Source: Leucothrix pacifica
GTDB lineage: Bacteria > Pseudomonadota > Gammaproteobacteria > Thiotrichales > Thiotrichaceae
DNA: 64,000 nucleotides
Assembly (NCBI RefSeq): GCF_003172875.1
Contig: NZ_QGKM01000004.1
Span: 1-64,000, forward strand
Direction: 5' to 3'
The notes under the pieces are model-generated. The model was given only the letters and a program-made list of their open reading frames with translations, searched no databases and was not told the origin of the DNA. Shown here in pieces: positions 5,361-64,000 of this stretch. The first letter of the stretch is position 1. Every line of letters begins with the position of its first letter. The translations under genes and the position numbers were made by a program.

Positions 5361-6545
5361 ATGAAACAGCTTAAACTACTCGTATTGCTTGGAGCATTGT
5401 CACTGAGTAACCCGATACTCGCGGAGTGCAGAAACAGTGGTAGCTTCCAGCAATGGATGAATGGCTTTAAACAACAAGCGATTAAATCCGGCATTCCTGC
5501 CAATATCGTCAATGGCGCGCTCAATAATGTGCGGTTTGATCCGGGCATTATTCAGCTGGATCGTTCACAAAATACCGTTGCTCAAACCTTCCTTCAGTAC
5601 TCTGCGACCAAAGCGAATCCATACCGGTTAAGTAATGGTAAGCGAAAAATGCAGGAAGACTACCCCTTGTTTCAACGCATCGAGAAACAGTTTGGTGTAC
5701 CAGCGCCAGTACTGACTGCCTACTGGGCGCTTGAGTCGGATTTTGGAAATGTCACCGGCAATGTTCACACATTGCAAGCCTTAGCCACCCTCGCCTATGA
5801 TTGCCGTCGTGGAAGTTTTTTCAGAAACGAGTTAATCCACGCGCTACGGTTAATCCAACGCGGTGATATCACACCTGTACAAATGCGTGGTGCCTGGGCC
5901 GGTGAATTGGGGCAGTTGCAATTTATACCATCCAGCTATAACAAGCATGCGGTGGATTACGACGGTGACGGCCGTCGTGACCTGATTAATTCCAAAGCTG
6001 ATGCATTGGCCTCTGCCGCAAGCTTGCTGAGGCAATACGGTTGGCAAGCCAAACAGCCATGGCTCATTGAAGTGCGCGTGCCTCCACAAATGAGCTGGTC
6101 ATTAGCACGATTGGATAAGAAGCTACCTGTCTCGCAATGGGCTAAACAAGGTGTTACACATATCAACGGTCAGGCGCTTCATGGCAACACCAACACTGCG
6201 TTGTTATTACCGATGGGCAGAAATGGCCCAGCTTTTTTAGCATTTCCAAACTTTGATGTGATGTTACGCTGGAATGAGTCAACCGTTTACACAACGTCAG
6301 CCGCATACCTTGCATCGCGCTATGCTGGCGCAGGACAAGTTCGTTATGGGAACGCACCAATACAGGTATTGAATGTTGGGCAAGTGAAAACATTACAATC
6401 GAAATTACGCGCACGTGGACTACGGATCACGAAAATTGACGGGATTATTGGTGAGGAAACGCGGGCCGCGGTTCGTCAAGTTCAGTTGCAGATGAAACTG
6501 CCCGCTGATGGTTATCCTGATTTGCCCTTCTTTCAAAGGTTATAA
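5361..6545 (+). CDS. Lytic murein transglycosylase (MltB/SLT_2 family) with peptidoglycan-binding domain
   Basis: A 394-residue periplasmic enzyme that cleaves the MurNAc-GlcNAc bond to give 1,6-anhydromuropeptides. A signal peptide (MKQLKLLVLLGALSL..ILA) precedes the mature start near residue 22. The SLT_2 catalytic region includes YWALESDFGN with the predicted general acid Glu125, GELGQLQFIPSSY, and an Asp-rich DYDGDGRRDL loop resembling the MltB calcium-binding loop. The last 65 residues form a PG_binding_1 domain. The AAGGAG ribosome site is strong. Single gene, followed by a terminator. Confidence 0.92.
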   Translation: MKQLKLLVLLGALSLSNPILAECRNSGSFQQWMNGFKQQAIKSGIPANIVNGALNNVRFDPGIIQLDRSQNTVAQTFLQYSATKANPYRLSNGKRKMQEDYPLFQRIEKQFGVPAPVLTAYWALESDFGNVTGNVHTLQALATLAYDCRRGSFFRNELIHALRLIQRGDITPVQMRGAWAGELGQLQFIPSSYNKHAVDYDGDGRRDLINSKADALASAASLLRQYGWQAKQPWLIEVRVPPQMSWSLARLDKKLPVSQWAKQGVTHINGQALHGNTNTALLLPMGRNGPAFLAFPNFDVMLRWNESTVYTTSAAYLASRYAGAGQVRYGNAPIQVLNVGQVKTLQSKLRARGLRITKIDGIIGEETRAAVRQVQLQMKLPADGYPDLPFFQRL

Positions 6546-43648: not shown

Positions 43649-43957
43649 TTATTGCTCGATGATCGGAAAGTTTTCTTTAGAGGCATCGACGCGATCACGC
43701 AATGCTTTTCCAGGCTTAAAGTGAGGAACATACTTTGGAGACAAATCAACCGTCTCACCAGTTTTCGGGTTACGGCCACGACGGGCCGCACGATAGTGCA
43801 GTGAAAAACTGCCAAACCCTCTGATCTCGATACGGTTTCCTGAAGAAAGTGTATCACTCATCTGCTCCAACAGAATTTTCACAGATAGCTCAACATCACG
43901 CCCGCTTAAGTGGCTTTGTTTTCTGGAAAGAATATCGATAATTTCGGATTTAGTCAT
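43649..43957 (-). CDS. ihfB: Integration host factor, beta subunit
   Basis: A 102-residue DNA-bending protein of the HU/IHF family, working as a heterodimer with IhfA. Marks: [23 protein letters not shown], then [25 protein letters not shown], the beta-arm with the intercalating proline (NPKTGE). It lies between rpsA and lapB. Confidence 0.97.
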
Positions 43958-55680: not shown

Positions 55681-58600
55681 TTAATGGACTCGTAATCCGC
55701 CCCGGGTACCCAAGCCTGAGCTTAAAACCAAGCGGGCATCCCATTGTGTTTTCTCATCGAGTTCGCACAAATAATCTAGCTGCTGCTTATGTTGAACGGC
55801 GATGGGTATACCATCCCTGAACACAATATGCTTATTACTCGCGATAGAAACTTTTCCCCCAGAATAAGTGTACCAGTGAGGTTTAGAGGATCTGCTGCGC
55901 TAATCGCAATCAAATCTCCGTTTTTATCTTGTCTGCGAATTTTACGCAAGCTGCCCAGGGCATCAGGCAGCGCGAACTGTTCGCCGCTCACACCCTGAAC
56001 AAACCGGCCACCGCGTATCTCACCACGTGCTTCCATGCGCCAGTAAACCCGTAGTAGATCGCGCCATGCTGGTAAAGCTGTTTCACGATCCAGCACACGT
56101 CTGAACACTACGCCGTAACGCATCAGCAGTGTGTGTGCAATGGTTTCAATCGACTCTGAATCAATCATGGAAAAAGACTGCATCTCATCTGCGTCATTCT
56201 CAAGACTCTCCAGCGGCACTATCAATGACCATCGCCCCGCTCTGTCAAAGGGTGAACCTGCTGCACCGCGCCCTCTTCTTCCGGAAAATCGCGGTAACTT
56301 GTTTGTCGGGGTAATCAGCGCACGCAAGCCAGCAAAACCATCTGAAGTCACCAACCCCCAACTCACCAGTTCACCCAGAGCATTTTCAACTTGCGTTCTT
56401 AGTAAGCCTGTTTGCATGACTAAATCGGTGAAGAACAGAGCCCCTTTGGTATCCAATGCGGTCGCAACCTTCTGTGCATAAGCACTGAGTGATACAGTAC
56501 CAGCTGTTTTAGTAAACACTTTCCAGTCCGGCAAGTGGTGACGTTGCAGCAGACTAATTGGTGTTAAACGTATTGGTGAGCGCTTTTTCTTATCGTCTTC
56601 TTGTGGAATGATATGCAGTCTCAACCAACTAAAGCGGCCAGTTGCGCACAAGGTCTCTAATAAATCCTGAGTGTATAAATCAATGCGTGCCGGAAGGATA
56701 TCCGTCTCCCATGCACCCGCCGCAGCCGAATAGCCCTCTAATTGTTGCAGTACAGAAGCCACAGCCTCAAGCCCTTCACCCTTTTCTGTTAAACTCTGCC
56801 AGTCAAATAAGAACCGCATATAATCAGCGATACTGACTGGTTTGATCTCGCTTCGTAGCCTGTTGATCGTGTAACGATGGATACGTGCCAGTAAACGACG
56901 CTCACACCATTCTATATCAGTATCGGAGGATGCCATCTCACTAAAATAGCCCTGTACAACAAATCCTTCTTGCTCCAGATTCAGCAGTGCAACCTCAACA
57001 GACACTAAGGACAACCCCAATGGCTCAGCAATTTGTCTTATCGTGACAGGCCCTAAGCCCTCCAGACGACTTCGTACCAACTCACGCAGTGGATCTTCAA
57101 GCTCAGCTGTATCAATCGGCTTGATATCTGGTGCTATTTTTGCGTCAGTGAATACCGCTTTGATTTGCAACAGACGCTCAGCCGCTACCCAGAGAACAGT
57201 GCCATTTGGTAAATACACCCGACACACCCGGGATTCTTTCAAAAGCTTTTTAAATAAAGGCAACCATCGGGCGTCACCATTCTCTTGATGCGCCGTAGCA
57301 GGTACCTCGGATTCCAAAATGAAACCCAACACCAGGAGTGCATCATGCAACTCATCGGCATCTCGCACCGTTGGCCAAGCCTCCTGCCGAACCTTTGCAA
57401 TAGCAGCTTCATCTAAACGTCCCAAATCTGCTGCATCCGTCGGGTTCAAACGGCTTCTTGAAGTTACTGCCAAAGTGCGTCGCTCTTCAGCAGGTGCTTC
57501 ATCTAAGAACGCATAGGGACGGGCGTTTACCACTTCTTCAGCAAGCGGTGAAGGCGCGGTTAAATCACAGCACTTCAGTGTCAGCTCACCTGCGGCTAAG
57601 CGAGACAATAACTTTTCCAGGCCCTCTATATCCATCGTGTCATGCAAACAGTCGTTAATAGTCTGTTTTATCAACGGATGATCCGGGACTTGTCGGTCTC
57701 CTGCGATATTCTCACCACAGGCAATTTGATCAGGAAACAAAATTGCCACCAGATCTTCTGCATCTGATCGCTGGAAATATGGGGGAGTTCGTTTACCGGC
57801 ACGATTACGCAGGACCGCCAATGCAATTGTCGCGTTCCAACGCCAGCGTGTCGGGAACATCGGAACGTCCAAAAAAGCTTGAATCAATACTTCCCGCACG
57901 GTGGTCGCATTCAAATACTTTGCCACCTCCTCCAACGGAAAGCTGTGACTGGAAGAAAGTGACAAAACAATACTGTCTTCGAGCGCAGCGGCCTGTAGTT
58001 CAAAATTAAACCGTCTACAAAACTTCTTGCGCAGCGATAAGCCCCACGCACGGTTGATACGCGAACCAAAGTTGGAATGAATCACAAAATGCATGTCACC
58101 GACATCATCAAAGAAACGTTCAAACACTATGGTCTCTTGCGTGGGTAGCTCACCTAATGCAGCTTTCGCAGCAGCCAGATAAGCGGTGATTTGCTCGCCA
58201 GCTGATGGTGGAATTGAATAGGTTTGCTGAACCCATTTTTGGGCAGCGGACATGCCTTGCTCTAACTGCTGATTCATACCCTTTCGCAGGTCTGAGACAG
58301 CCAGTGACAGCTCGTCAGTCCGCCCCGGTGCTTCACCAAACCAAAACGGAATATTGGGCGGTTGACCATTTGCATCCTCGACATACATACGGCCAGTTTC
58401 AACTTTTAGAATGCGATAGGAGGTATTTCCTAACTGAAAGATGCCGCCTGGCAAACTTTCAAACGCAAAATCCTCACCGACCGAACCAATACGGATATCT
58501 TCAGGACTCAGAATCACATCACAGTCAAACTGATCCGGTATTGCGCCACCGTTGGTGAGCGACACCAGACGTGCGTTTCGTCGTGCCCTGACTCGCCCAT

Positions 58601-60032
58601 TAACGGCATCATAATGAAGATAAGCCCCTTTGCGGCCCCGTCGCGTTGAATAGCCATCACTGAGCATTTGGATAATGCTATCGAAGTCCACACGCATTAA
58701 ATCCCGGTAAGGATAGGCTGACGAGAACACCTTAAATAAATCATCACACAACCATTCATCGCCACTTACTTCTGCAACGATTTGCTGAGACAACACATCC
58801 AATGGTTGCTCAGGAATAATGATTCTATCTAACTCACCATTATTAGCCGCCCCAAGCAGCGCGGTTGTTTCGACCAATTCATCCCGAGTCAGTGGAAAGA
58901 TCCGCCCTTTTGGCGTACCACCGACATGGTGACCAGAGCGACCAACACGCTGTAAGAAAGCTGCAATCGATCTGGGTGAACCAAGCTGACAGACTAAGTC
59001 AATCTCACCGATATCAATACCCAGTTCCAGAGATGCCGTCGCAACTAAACACCTCAGCTTACCTTGTTTCAGTGCCTGCTCCGCGGCATGGCGTTTATCT
59101 TTTGACATACTGCCGTGATGGGCCATAACACTATCTTCACCCACACGCTCAGCGATATTCTTAGAGACTCGCTCTGCCAGTCGCCTAGTATTCACGAAGA
59201 TCAGAGTGGTTCTGTGTTGGTCTATCAGCGAGTGGAGGCGGTTGTATACTTCTATCCAGACTTCATTCGCCATGACTGCTTCTAACGGCGAGCCCGGCAA
59301 TTCAAGGTTTAAATCACGCTGCCTGCTGTGCCCCGTATCGACAATCTCACAATGCTCATCTCGTTGCCCCAGCAGAAACTGCGCCATGGTTTCGATTGGC
59401 TTTTGCGTAGCGGATAAACCGATGCGTTGTAAAGAGGCGGAAGAATTGGTTGCTTTAACCAATGCATCGAGTCGTTCAAGCGATAAACACAAATGAGAAC
59501 CACGTTTACTGCCTGCTACTGCATGGATTTCATCGACGATGACCGTTTCTACAGTACTTAGCATTTTACGACCAGAGTCCGAAGTCAGCAGGATATAAAT
59601 CGACTCCGGTGTGGTCACCAAAATGTGCGGTGGATTTCTGATTGCTTTACTACGCTCTGAGGCGGGTGTGTCGCCCGTTCTCACCCACGCCCGCAGAGGC
59701 ACATCTGGTAAACCTTGCTCCAATAATTTGTCCCGAATCCCCTGAATGGGCAGCTGCAGATTAATCTGTATATCATTGGATAATGCTTTGAGTGGTGAGA
59801 TGTATAAAACGCGTGTCAATGACTCCAGTGGCTGCTCTAAGCCCTCACGAATCAGTTGATCAATGGCCACCATGAACGCAGCTAAGGTCTTACCAGAGCC
59901 AGTCGGTGCGGCTAATAGTGTGTGTTGTTGGCAAGAGATAGAAGCCCATGAAGCTTCTTGAACAGATGTTGGTTGATCGAAACTATGATCAAACCAAGAC
60001 TGAACAGCGGGATGAAATGCATATTGACTCAT
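55681..60032 (-). CDS. lhr: Lhr-type ATP-dependent helicase, apparent frameshift near the 3' end
   Basis: A very large superfamily 2 helicase of the Lhr type that unwinds RNA-DNA and DNA duplexes in repair. The open frame 55776-60032 gives 1418 residues. Motif I is PTGSGKT (43-49), motif II VDEIHAVAGSKRG, motif III LSATQKP and motif VI RVGRSGHHVG, followed by the long Lhr C-terminal extension. Family C-termini end after LNLTGTLILGEKV-type sequence and R-x-FRDG. Here the frame drifts after LILGEK; the next frame reads VSIASNKHIVFRDGIPIAVQ and ends at a stop at 55681. One lost base near 55848-55856 joins both. Sequencing error or real mutation cannot be separated by eye. Confidence 0.9.
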
Positions 60033-60534: not shown

Positions 60535-62226
60535 TTACATCTCCGAGTTCAGCAGATTACCAATCCGATAGGCTGCAGAGCCGGCGCTGGATTCAATATA
60601 AGCACCTTCAGCTAAGCTTGCCAATCCACGCAGGTGATCAGAACTTAGTTCATAGGCGATTGCGTGGATTGGGATACCAGACCATTCCAGCGCCTTCTCC
60701 ACTTCGGTGAAGTCCAAACCTCGATTAGTTTCACCGTCTGACAACAAGAAAATAACCTTTTTATGATCAGGGTGCGCCTTGCCATACTCAAGCAACAATT
60801 CAGCTGCGACTAACACCGCATCATTGGTAGCCGTTTTACCACCGGTACGCAAGCGTCCTACTGCACCATTAAAAAGTGCTTTTTGTTGTACATCGAAGGG
60901 GCGAATCATTAGGTCCACATTGACCCGTTCGCTGTAAGTGACCAAGCCAATGGCATTGGTTGAGTTGATCAAATCAGATGACTCAACCAGAGCCGACTTC
61001 AGGTTTTTGATACGGGTACCTTCCATAGAGCCGGACACATCTGCGACAAATACCGCAGCAATTGGACGCCCCCCTGATTTTTTCAGTTTCCACAATTTTT
61101 GTGCCTGACCAATAATAGAACCATCAGACAGCTTATAAGCATTTACATAGTCTGCTGATTGCCCAAAGCCAAAGCGCTTTACGACGGACTGCTGAGACTC
61201 AATGAACTTAGCAAACAGCTTTAGTACTTCTCGTTCAGCGGGGTCTGCTTCCGGTGTTGCATACAGTGGACTGTCATGACGCACGCCAAATGGAACGAAC
61301 TGATAATCATTCATACCCGTGACGTTAACCCAAGACTGGTGCTCCATCACCATGGCATCCAGCACACCACTGCCTTGTGCGGCATCTCGCATTTGAATGG
61401 TGTTTTGTGCCACAAACGGCACACCGGCCTGAAATGCTTCAAAGGCACTCGCCACATCAGGTGACAGCATTTGCGACTCATCACCTTCGGCAAATGAATT
61501 TAGTACGGTGAGCAGGAAGTTCAGACCTGTACTGGACTGATAAGGATTGGTATACCCCATTGCAAAGCTGCCACTACTAACATTGGTCAGCAACTTGGCG
61601 ATATCCAGCTTTCCATCCGTGGTGATCATGTCTAATTTAGACTTTTTAACGATGATACCAGCGGTATTTGGTGCGGTTACCTCAGCAATCATTTCGAGTG
61701 GTATGCCATTAGCATTGAGTAATTCCGCCCATAAGAAACTACTGGGTGAAAAGGCATCCGGCGTATATCGTCTGGCCTGAATAAACTGTGCGCCAAGGCC
61801 CGATGCCACCTTACGAATCGCTACCTTGGCCACTTTGCCATTGCTAATGCGATTGCCCTGCTGGTTAAACGCCTGAGCCAGTTCAATGTAAAACCCATCG
61901 CGCCCTTGCCCCGCCTTCTCTGAGGAAGTAAAAATCTCGACCGCCTCGGTTTGACTATCATCACGTGCATTCAATGAGATAGGGTATTCACGCAGATCAG
62001 GCAACATCGACAACAAATTCGTTTGTGTAAGCTGAATATTGGCACGCACCTGATTCTCACGATAACTAGGCTGGACCGTTTTATTGACCAGCTTATTAAT
62101 TTCCTCTGCGGCTTTCTCAGGCGAATCAATTGCTCCACCACAGCCACTCAGCGTGATTGCCACCGCTCCCGCCAGCAATAATCCCGGAATGCTTTGAGTG
62201 AATATCTTTTGAATGGCTTGTGACAT
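60535..62226 (-). CDS. Lipoprotein with solute-binding and von Willebrand A domains
   Basis: A 563-residue exported lipoprotein. Signal and lipobox: LLLAGAVAITLSGC near residue 29. Residues about 70-370 look like a type 2 solute-binding fold (VEIFTSSEKAG, GIIVKKSKLDMITTDGKL, ALQAF-type helices, VFVPFGVRHDSPLYA). The C-terminal vWA domain has VFVADVSGSMEGTR (metal site, about residue 395), LVTYSERVNV, GKTATNDAVL and FLLSDGETNRGLD. This fusion is known as a 'substrate-binding and VWA' protein whose ligand is undescribed. Middle gene of the cluster, 30 bp after the membrane protein and 5 bp before the small vWA protein. Confidence 0.85.
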   Translation of the reverse strand: MSQAIQKIFTQSIPGLLLAGAVAITLSGCGGAIDSPEKAAEEINKLVNKTVQPSYRENQVRANIQLTQTNLLSMLPDLREYPISLNARDDSQTEAVEIFTSSEKAGQGRDGFYIELAQAFNQQGNRISNGKVAKVAIRKVASGLGAQFIQARRYTPDAFSPSSFLWAELLNANGIPLEMIAEVTAPNTAGIIVKKSKLDMITTDGKLDIAKLLTNVSSGSFAMGYTNPYQSSTGLNFLLTVLNSFAEGDESQMLSPDVASAFEAFQAGVPFVAQNTIQMRDAAQGSGVLDAMVMEHQSWVNVTGMNDYQFVPFGVRHDSPLYATPEADPAEREVLKLFAKFIESQQSVVKRFGFGQSADYVNAYKLSDGSIIGQAQKLWKLKKSGGRPIAAVFVADVSGSMEGTRIKNLKSALVESSDLINSTNAIGLVTYSERVNVDLMIRPFDVQQKALFNGAVGRLRTGGKTATNDAVLVAAELLLEYGKAHPDHKKVIFLLSDGETNRGLDFTEVEKALEWSGIPIHAIAYELSSDHLRGLASLAEGAYIESSAGSAAYRIGNLLNSEM

Positions 62227-62255: not shown

Positions 62256-62969
62256 TTATCGACCACTATTGTTCGCAATCTCTGCCAGTGCAACTAATCT
62301 GGCCAATGCATCAGTTCGCTCGTAATCGCTGAATGATCTTATATTAGCAATTTCTACCGCAGTTTCTGTTAAAGAATGAAACAACTGGTTATTTTCTTCT
62401 AAGAATCCATTTAAACGCGCCTCCTGCTCATCCTGAAGCACGGTCTGCTTATCATGGCGCTTTTGTTGTTCGTTGTTCTCAACCTGATCTGCCTGCCGAT
62501 AGGTGTGAGATAAGGTAGAAATGCTATGGCCGGTTGCCACTACATCTGCCAGATTCTGAATAGCATGCTTCTGAACCGTTCTCGCAGCGCTCAGGTAAGT
62601 CGTTGGCACATTGGCTTTGCCATAGAATCGCGTCTCCACCACAGAATGATAGTCATCAATGATAGCGGTTAGCACCTCGGTCTGACGAACGCCCTCTTTC
62701 AAACCAAGATCACTTAGCTCAGATTTGATCGTCATCAAACGTGCCCGCATCTCCTCATGCTCCCGGGCCTCACGTTCTTCCAGCCACTCCTCATCATCAA
62801 CATCTGAATATCCGGCGAAGCGATAAAACAAGGGAACTGTTAGAATGGATATCACCGAGATAACGGCATAAATGCCCGTTGCCAACAGATTGCCCTGAAA
62901 CCACCAGAAAAAAGCCAGTAATAGAATCAAAGAGAGAATTGCAGCGATTAAAGTATATCTTTTTATCAT
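62256..62969 (-). CDS. Two-helix membrane protein with coiled coil, vWA cluster
   Basis: A 237-residue protein with two membrane helices near the N-terminus (LIAAILSLILLLAFFWWFQ and TGIYAVISVISILTVPLFY), then a charged coiled coil and helix bundle (EEWLEEREAREHEEMRARL, then TYLSAARTVQKHAIQNLADV). I do not recognise a named family. The pattern YLSAARTV..AIQNLADV resembles uncharacterised proteins found beside TelA/XpaC and SBP-vWA genes. It is the first gene of the cluster and probably a cytoplasm-facing partner of the SBP-vWA lipoprotein. Confidence 0.6.
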   Translation of the reverse strand: MIKRYTLIAAILSLILLLAFFWWFQGNLLATGIYAVISVISILTVPLFYRFAGYSDVDDEEWLEEREAREHEEMRARLMTIKSELSDLGLKEGVRQTEVLTAIIDDYHSVVETRFYGKANVPTTYLSAARTVQKHAIQNLADVVATGHSISTLSHTYRQADQVENNEQQKRHDKQTVLQDEQEARLNGFLEENNQLFHSLTETAVEIANIRSFSDYERTDALARLVALAEIANNSGR

Positions 62970-62984
62970 GCGCTAAGTGTCTCA

Positions 62985-63406
62985 CGTTACCAGTCTAGTG
63001 TCATCCCGAAGCACTCGCCTCATTATCTTTTGTCAAGACGTATTTTGAGACTTATACACACCTACCGTTCGTCGGAAATGAAATGTCAATAGTTTTTAAT
63101 AAAATAAATTATGGATTAGCAATAGTTTTTAACTTATTGTTTTTATTAATAAATTTCACCATGTTTGTTTTTTGATCAATTCGCTGATAGCAAGGTATTT
63201 AAAGGCTTGATGACACTTTTCAGAACACTACTCACAGACTTATCCACAACCTCTGTGGACAAATCCACAAAGTGAATTGTCAAGATACCAGCGGTATAAA
63301 TAGTTAAAAAAATGAAAATATTCCGCTTGCATTGCCGCGAAATTTTCCGTCGAAATGCCGGACCGTTAACGCATGACAGCTCTCGTATAAAACACTTAAT
63401 TAAGCG
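62985..63406. other. AT-rich gap with clustered DnaA-box-like 9-mers
   Basis: The 420-bp gap holds TTATACACA (63052-63060), an AT-rich stretch (63086-63180), then TTATCCACA (63240-63248, exact consensus), TGTGGACAA (63254-63262, minus-strand TTGTCCACA) and a weak AAATCCACA (63261-63269). This arrangement resembles an initiator-binding or DnaA-titrating site. No gene-like frame is present. Confidence 0.45.
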
Positions 63407-64000
63407 CTAACTAATCACTTGAAGCAATGTGTGTGTTTGTTGAGGGTTCACTGTGACCCCTTGAGTAACTGCTGTCTCAACACACAACATTTTTTGATAA
63501 CCGTCGTTATCCATATCAATCATGGACGTAGCAATCTCAGACCAGGGGTTCCAAACCACTAAACTATCATGACCATAAGATTGAATGACCGTAGAGACAT
63601 TAGACTGATTAATGCTGACCTTTTCGACAGGATTCAAATGCACACGATCAGTCTCACTGGTAAACAAATACGGAGACGGTGTTTCAAACTCAGCCCAATT
63701 CAGAGGCTTGTCGGAGTAAATCCCAGATAAGCCTTTCAGTTCGGTATGATAAATATCATCCACTGCAAAATAGCTATGCAACGCTGCATTATATGTGAAT
63801 GTCTCTTCGCCCACATTTTTCGTGCTCAAACTGACATGCATCGTCTTCCCAATCCGAATTGTCAGCCTCAACTCAGCGATACCATCAAAGCCTGCACCTT
63901 GGGTGGTTTCAGGCGACAGCATCAACTCGGTATAATCAGTCTCATCAGTCGCACTAAGTAGTTGCCAAGGCTGTGTTCGTACGTAACCGTGAGCCTGCAA
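63407..64000 (-). CDS. yeaD: D-hexose-6-phosphate mutarotase, YeaD-like (5' end outside window)
   Basis: The C-terminal 197 residues of an aldose 1-epimerase-fold protein; the gene starts beyond the right edge. QAHGYVRTQPW (usual P-HGFAR), NAALHSYFAVDDI with the family histidine, VVWNPWSE and MLCVETAV are all in place. It interconverts alpha and beta glucose 6-phosphate in the cytoplasm. Nothing downstream on this strand shares the transcript within the DnaA-box gap. Confidence 0.88.
   Translation of the reverse strand: MQAHGYVRTQPWQLLSATDETDYTELMLSPETTQGAGFDGIAELRLTIRIGKTMHVSLSTKNVGEETFTYNAALHSYFAVDDIYHTELKGLSGIYSDKPLNWAEFETPSPYLFTSETDRVHLNPVEKVSINQSNVSTVIQSYGHDSLVVWNPWSEIATSMIDMDNDGYQKMLCVETAVTQGVTVNPQQTHTLLQVIS

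Follow-up and report, generated by a model that had tools for sequence, protein, structure and literature searches.

The window, i.e., the whole stretch of 64,000 nucleotides that was analysed, is the first 64 kb of contig C81 (191,739 bp) of a Leucothrix pacifica genome that amounts to 5,022,804 bp in 146 contigs. Close to its right end a group of DnaA boxes is found within a non-coding intergenic gap of 437 bp (nucleotides 62970 to 63406), which separates two genes of the minus strand, the 5' end of one for a 237-amino acid protein on its left and the 3' end of an epimerase-like one on its right; a non-coding location is one of the features by which DnaA-reactivating sequences (DARS) are defined. 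The features of the locus are collected in Table 1. An earlier note had reported the boxes TTATACACA, TTATCCACA and, in opposite orientation, TTGTCCACA, which are indeed present starting at 63052, 63240 and 63254, and had described them as flanking an AT-rich tract. The tract does separate the first box from the other two, but the note missed box III and the fixed spacings of the core, which in the window reads CTACTCACA gac TTATCCACA acctc TGTGGACAA. An RNA element was considered and rejected, as the window had no Rfam match at gathering level, the region 62900-63500 had none at E<=1 and no terminator-like site, and a tRNA search found none. Elsewhere in the window, nucleotides 55776-60032 of the minus strand encode a large protein (1,418 amino acids) related to Lhr-type helicases.

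Table 1. Features of the intergenic locus and its flanking genes (window coordinates; distances are from box II).
Feature	Position	Strand	Description
Gene, 237 aa	62256..62969	-	no Pfam match; heads a run with a VWA-domain protein (60535-62226)
Outlying DnaA box TTATACACA	63052..63060	+	-188
AT-rich tract	63090..63179		77-87% AT in 30-bp bins; between the TTATACACA box and boxes II/I
IHF-like site	63130..63142	-	-110; one mismatch; exact in orthologs G003 and G006
Fis-like site GTTTGTTTTTTGATC	63163..63177	+	-77; one mismatch to GNNNAWWWWWTNNNC
Second IHF-like site TATCAGCGAATTG	63177..63189	-	-63; exact match to WATCARNNNNTTR
DnaA box III-like CTACTCACA	63228..63236	+	6/9 matches; 3 bp from box II
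DnaA box II TTATCCACA	63240..63248	+	exact consensus
DnaA box I TTGTCCACA	63254..63262	-	8/9 matches; opposed to II and III; 5-bp spacer
Gene, aldose 1-epimerase-like	63407..64000	-	runs past the window end

Three boxes, with box I opposed to boxes II and III at the spacing of DARS1 and DARS2, constitute the DARS core as defined in PMC5742627. The arrangement was scored with a triad test, in which a box with at least 8/9 matches had to be accompanied by a box with at least 5/9 matches located 3 bp upstream and by an opposed box with at least 6/9 matches at 5 bp. Only one of the 24 boxes of the window with at least 8/9 matches was flagged, that of the core at 63228-63262, and none of the 10 found in a 20-kb stretch that includes dnaA. 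When ten E. coli stretches were subjected to the same test, DARS1 was flagged once and DARS2 twice (the core and a second cluster), and no triad was flagged among purH, polA, nrdD, nrdA, rpoH, dnaA, oriC/mioC and datA.

To describe the layout in other genomes, 57 of them (our own and its relatives) were scanned for convergent pairs of TTATNCACA and TGTGGAYAA with gaps of 0-30 bp. Pairs were present in 35 of these genomes. The gap was 5 bp in 57 of the 78 pairs, and all other gaps together accounted for 21, four of which were gaps of 17 bp that correspond to the third box of a triad. At 57 sites a third box located at 3 bp had at least 7/9 matches in 47 cases and at least 6/9 in 54, while the maxima for the other spacings between 0 and 30 were 5 and 13 sites respectively, the latter at a spacing of 14. 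A survey of the class that allowed gaps of 3-7 bp detected the box pair in 89 of 187 sampled genomes, compared with 2 genomes for a reversed control pattern, and among the matches listed all 150 rows (at least 78 sites by hand count) had a gap of 5. Forty stretches, comprising 42 sites from 38 other genomes of the class, were taken as a check set from the 78 listed sites in listing order, i.e., not at random; the third box at 3 bp had at least 6/9 matches in all 42 and at least 7/9 in 35, counts in which, as in those above, sites from related genomes are not independent of one another. The 5-bp gap was less exclusive outside the class (88 genomes of the same phylum included 14 with gap 5 and 5 with gap 3 or 6), and the pair was found in 12 of the 32 class genomes, own included, of the same-phylum sample.

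The AT-rich tract is read as the likely IHF/Fis regulatory part of the element and not as an unwinding element, because matches to the IHF and Fis consensus sequences fall there. Among the related sites (56-57), AT content is also raised, from about -120 to -61. For the following counts each site was oriented from box III alone. The exact IHF consensus was found on the box III side of 28 of 56 sites and on the side away from box III of 5 of 57, against 1.2 expected in each case; when one mismatch was permitted the figures were 51/56 (21.2 expected) and 31/57 (17.8 expected). These matches have their peak on one strand, between -109 and -111 relative to box II. The slot from -113 to -107 was occupied by an exact match at 20 of 56 sites and by one with up to one mismatch at 39, control slots reaching at most 2. 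The Fis slot, between -80 and -74, included exact matches at 31 of 56 sites and matches with up to one mismatch at 48 (control slots, at most 5), with the limitation that the Fis pattern is a rough guide, which in E. coli DARS2 finds just one-mismatch matches at -175 and +120. Both slots were occupied at up to one mismatch at only 34 of the 56 sites. At up to one mismatch, the 42 sites of the check set gave 25/42 for the IHF slot (controls at most 4) and 29/42 for the Fis slot (controls at most 5), and only 17/42 for both. The second IHF-like site is less regular: in relatives it has one mismatch in G006, is moved to -55 in G003, and was not found in G002.

Orthologs of the element were identified in three of six other genomes of the genus (G002, G003 and G006), and the three genomes with no match are 56-69% complete. 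Box II is TTATCCACA in G003 and G006 and TTATGCACA in G002, and box III, weak in the window, has 4/9 matches in G006. A TTATNCACA-type box at -188 from box II is common to the window, G002 and G003, with the sequence TTATTCACA in the latter two, and none is located at -188 in G006. Genes for the VWA protein and the epimerase adjoin the element in G003 and G006 as they do in the window. In G002, which is 97% complete, the element has ampD on one side and a gene for a TRAP transporter on the other, and the usual adjacent genes are absent from both sides, having been lost or moved. In C81 the next gene but one encodes a relative of this TRAP transporter, and a relative of the G002 ampD is found in G006 on the other side of the element at a distance of 3.3 kb. 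The element is kept in G002 without its usual neighbours and therefore is not simply their promoter.

The exact box pair occurs twice more in the L. pacifica genome: on contig C67 near sbcC, a copy also found in G002, and on contig C71 between rimO and a phosphoribulokinase gene, the rimO-adjacent copy being also present in G001, G004, G010 and G016. Three more pairs were found at one mismatch, and up to two mismatches yielded 11 pairs versus 2 for the reversed pattern. The best reading of these sequences is that the window element is one of three to six DARS2-type candidates in this genome. The same genome has exact TTATCCACA pairs on short contigs, one with its members 36 bp apart (L022, G000 C37:1063 and 1099) and another with a separation of 408 bp (L024, G000 C100:5715 and 6123). 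Two box pairs at a single locus were also seen, 424 bp apart in L266 (G195), 401 bp in L270 (G185) and about 1,090 bp in L108 (G003), and these loci recall the two clusters, boxes I-III and IV-VI, of E. coli DARS2. A DARS-type triad whose box III is CTATCAACA was also seen at position 6244 (L110) of C2 (89,037 bp), the small second contig of G003 and perhaps a plasmid or an additional replicon. In seven genomes (L116 near 6719 in G030, L117, L089, L091, L085, L087 and L114) a triad and the gene of the restart helicase PriA are separated by about 90-190 bp; PriA was identified by profile in G030 and by BLAST cluster in the other six. UvrB had been expected next to the copies in the genus of G030, and the shared neighbour proved to be PriA instead. 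Chromosome position, expressed as the distance from dnaA divided by half the contig and calculated by hand, was 0.88, 0.85 and 0.85 in G003; 0.17 and 0.68 in G054; 0.17 in G030; 0.16 in G025; 0.31 in G035; 0.71 and 0.68 in G100; 0.34 in G140; and 0.57 in G066. Thus, the position of the elements follows no single rule.

Taken as a whole, the sequence evidence suggests, with a probability of roughly three in four, that the cluster belongs to the chromosomal DnaA-reactivating sequences, the kind of element with which E. coli times the replication of its chromosome, and is of the DARS2 type with the variant order core-Fis-IHF. Protein binding, nucleotide exchange and timing at the element are inferred from E. 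coli. By analogy, ADP-DnaA would sit head to head on boxes I and II, which are opposed, and also on box III in tandem; IHF and Fis, attached at a distance of 60-110 bp on the side of box III, would shape the DNA in such a way that the DnaA oligomer releases ADP; and apo-DnaA would then depart and pick up ATP, so that the level of ATP-DnaA could rise ahead of initiation at the dnaA-linked origin. The genome encodes IHF-alpha (above the curated cut-off), a Fis homologue with 42% identity, and a DnaA protein 57% identical to that of E. coli. In the latter R227, K243, D269, R281, R285 and L290 are unchanged, residues that PMC5742627 names for DnaA interactions, with D269 and L290 named for DARS action. 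The window itself includes a gene of the HU/IHF family (43679-43957, minus strand) that scores 70 bits compared with an IHF-alpha cut-off of 120.

The alternative that best withstands these data, unlikely as it is, is that the locus acts as datA does or by plain titration, its boxes holding ATP-DnaA or, with IHF, speeding its hydrolysis, and initiation being delayed as a result. High-affinity boxes adjoin an IHF-like site, several copies are present per genome, and E. coli datA, like this locus, includes a double DnaA box at 3 bp and IHF; datA, however, has no opposed box at 5 bp and is left unflagged by the triad test. The essential datA boxes all face one way around the IHF site, according to PMC5742627, whereas boxes I and II are here opposed at a fixed 5 bp, and Fis positions are conserved as well. 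On these sequence features, a pair of opposed boxes accompanied by IHF and Fis sites is a better fit to DARS than to datA. Of the titration locus that the earlier note had offered as one option, what survives is that titration by the element may take place as a side effect.

Even less probable is that the element is a DnaA-regulated promoter through which DnaA, IHF and Fis would control the operon of the 237-amino acid and VWA proteins that starts at 62969. The element is indeed upstream of the 237-amino acid gene, E. coli DnaA regulates genes via box pairs 2-3 bp apart (PMC11317965), and copies in other genomes are found close upstream of genes such as priA. Against this, G002 keeps the element beside other genes, and the convergent 5-bp pair was found in only one of 59 VWA-relative loci from named genomes, some of them cut short. 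That locus, L. arctica L196, has a weak box III, and a triad filter that includes box III passes none of the 59. G002 and these VWA loci make a VWA-operon promoter unlikely. Moreover, E. coli purH and polA have the double boxes as a tandem pair and lack the opposed box, and the two weak promoter-like matches at the window locus, against 1.7 expected by chance, are both on the other strand.

A second chromosome origin, or one in an unusual position as the earlier note had put forward, is very improbable, even though DnaA boxes adjoin an AT-rich tract. A dnaA profile match is located on another contig (C114:34389-34874), with three exact TTATCCACA boxes 443-735 bp before it and the order mnmE, yidC, rnpA, dnaA, dnaN, recF in the surrounding ORFs (read from the sequence, dnaA alone by profile); DnaA-domain matches in the genome are confined to C114 and C67. 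The note was correct in that dnaA is not near, and as for gidA and rpmH, they are absent among the ORFs identified between 56 and 64 kb. GC skew on C114 in 3-kb bins shows a noisy turn, negative in 8 of 11 bins before 33 kb and positive in 9 of 12 after it. The skew of C81 is negative in 34 of its 39 5-kb bins and does not turn at 63 kb. In G003, whose main contig is 5,096,637 bp, 22 sampled stretches show the skew becoming positive between 3.75 and 4.0 Mb, an interval that includes dnaA at 3.90 Mb, and becoming negative between 1.85 and 2.0 Mb; the ortholog of the element maps to 1.647 Mb. Both the skew turn and the dnaA-linked region are elsewhere, and an origin at this site was rejected on account of dnaA with its own boxes on C114, the lack of a skew turn and the distance of the G003 ortholog. 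The more general proposal of the note, an origin or a DnaA-titrating site, holds in the sense of a putative DnaA control locus away from dnaA. Finally, a chance cluster, also entertained in the note, has a negligible probability and is refuted because the element is conserved in orthologs and its layout is common to many members of the class: although TTATNCACA is not enriched over the whole window (3 observed, 2.87 expected), when the window was resampled 300 times with a first-order Markov model, no resampling had three boxes, two of them TTATNCACA, inside 220 bp, and none had the convergent 5-bp pair.

If the element is a DARS2-type sequence, it is possible, although we advance it tentatively and at somewhat less than even odds, that an ancestral arrangement of IHF (-110), Fis (-77) and DnaA triad was common to many Gammaproteobacteria, that E. 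coli DARS2 is a rearranged descendant of it, that some lineages such as Leucothrix have several dispersed DnaA-recharging sites and not two fixed loci, and that these sites can outlive their neighbours. A fixed sequence grammar would let DnaA reactivation be predicted from sequence in organisms without cell-cycle data, and the order in which Fis and IHF follow the core, different from that in E. coli, offers a direct test of how both proteins activate DARS2. In PMC8682772, PMC5742627 and PMC6090056, DARS elements are described for E. coli and close kin. The passages covered by the literature search contained neither a DARS report from the Leucothrix/Thiothrix group nor a core-Fis-IHF order, so that earlier notice is possible.

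Among known systems, DARS2 homologues are reported in seven E. coli-proximal species (PMC8682772) and DARS-like sequences of V. cholerae at E. coli positions (PMC6090056), and a remark on DARS in PMC5742627 concerns beta- or gamma-proteobacteria close to E. coli. Compared by description, those sites have E. coli-like positions, whereas the window element and its relatives belong to other families and gene contexts. The genes next to the window element differ from those of the E. coli DARS, and the element, unlike E. coli DARS2, is one of several copies in its genome. The core itself is identical in organization: in both DARS1 and DARS2 of strain MG1655, box III is followed by 3 bp, box II, 5 bp and the opposed box I. 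DARS1, upstream of uvrB, has in common with the window this three-box core, and over 250 bp on its box III side a search that allowed one mismatch found no IHF-like site. A second cluster of E. coli DARS2 (L052, 2136-2170), about 315 bp from the core, repeats the 3-bp and 5-bp triad spacing and presumably corresponds to boxes IV-VI, reported as dispensable. DARS2, upstream of mutH, has at -109 the IHF sequence AATCAGAGAATTG, located on the side of box III and on the same strand as the IHF-like site of the window at -110. E. coli DARS2 depends on IHF and Fis, and in experiments its IBS1-2 was moved toward the core or toward FBS2-3 (both from PMC4245941); therefore the E. coli order is core-IHF-Fis, with the required Fis sites FBS2-3 beyond IHF. 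No match to the Fis pattern with up to one mismatch was found near -77 in E. coli DARS2, whereas in the window and its relatives, where Fis peaks at -77 on the core side of IHF, the order is core-Fis-IHF. Fis is thus not located beyond IHF, and the element is therefore classed as a probable DARS2-type variant, not as a strict DARS2.
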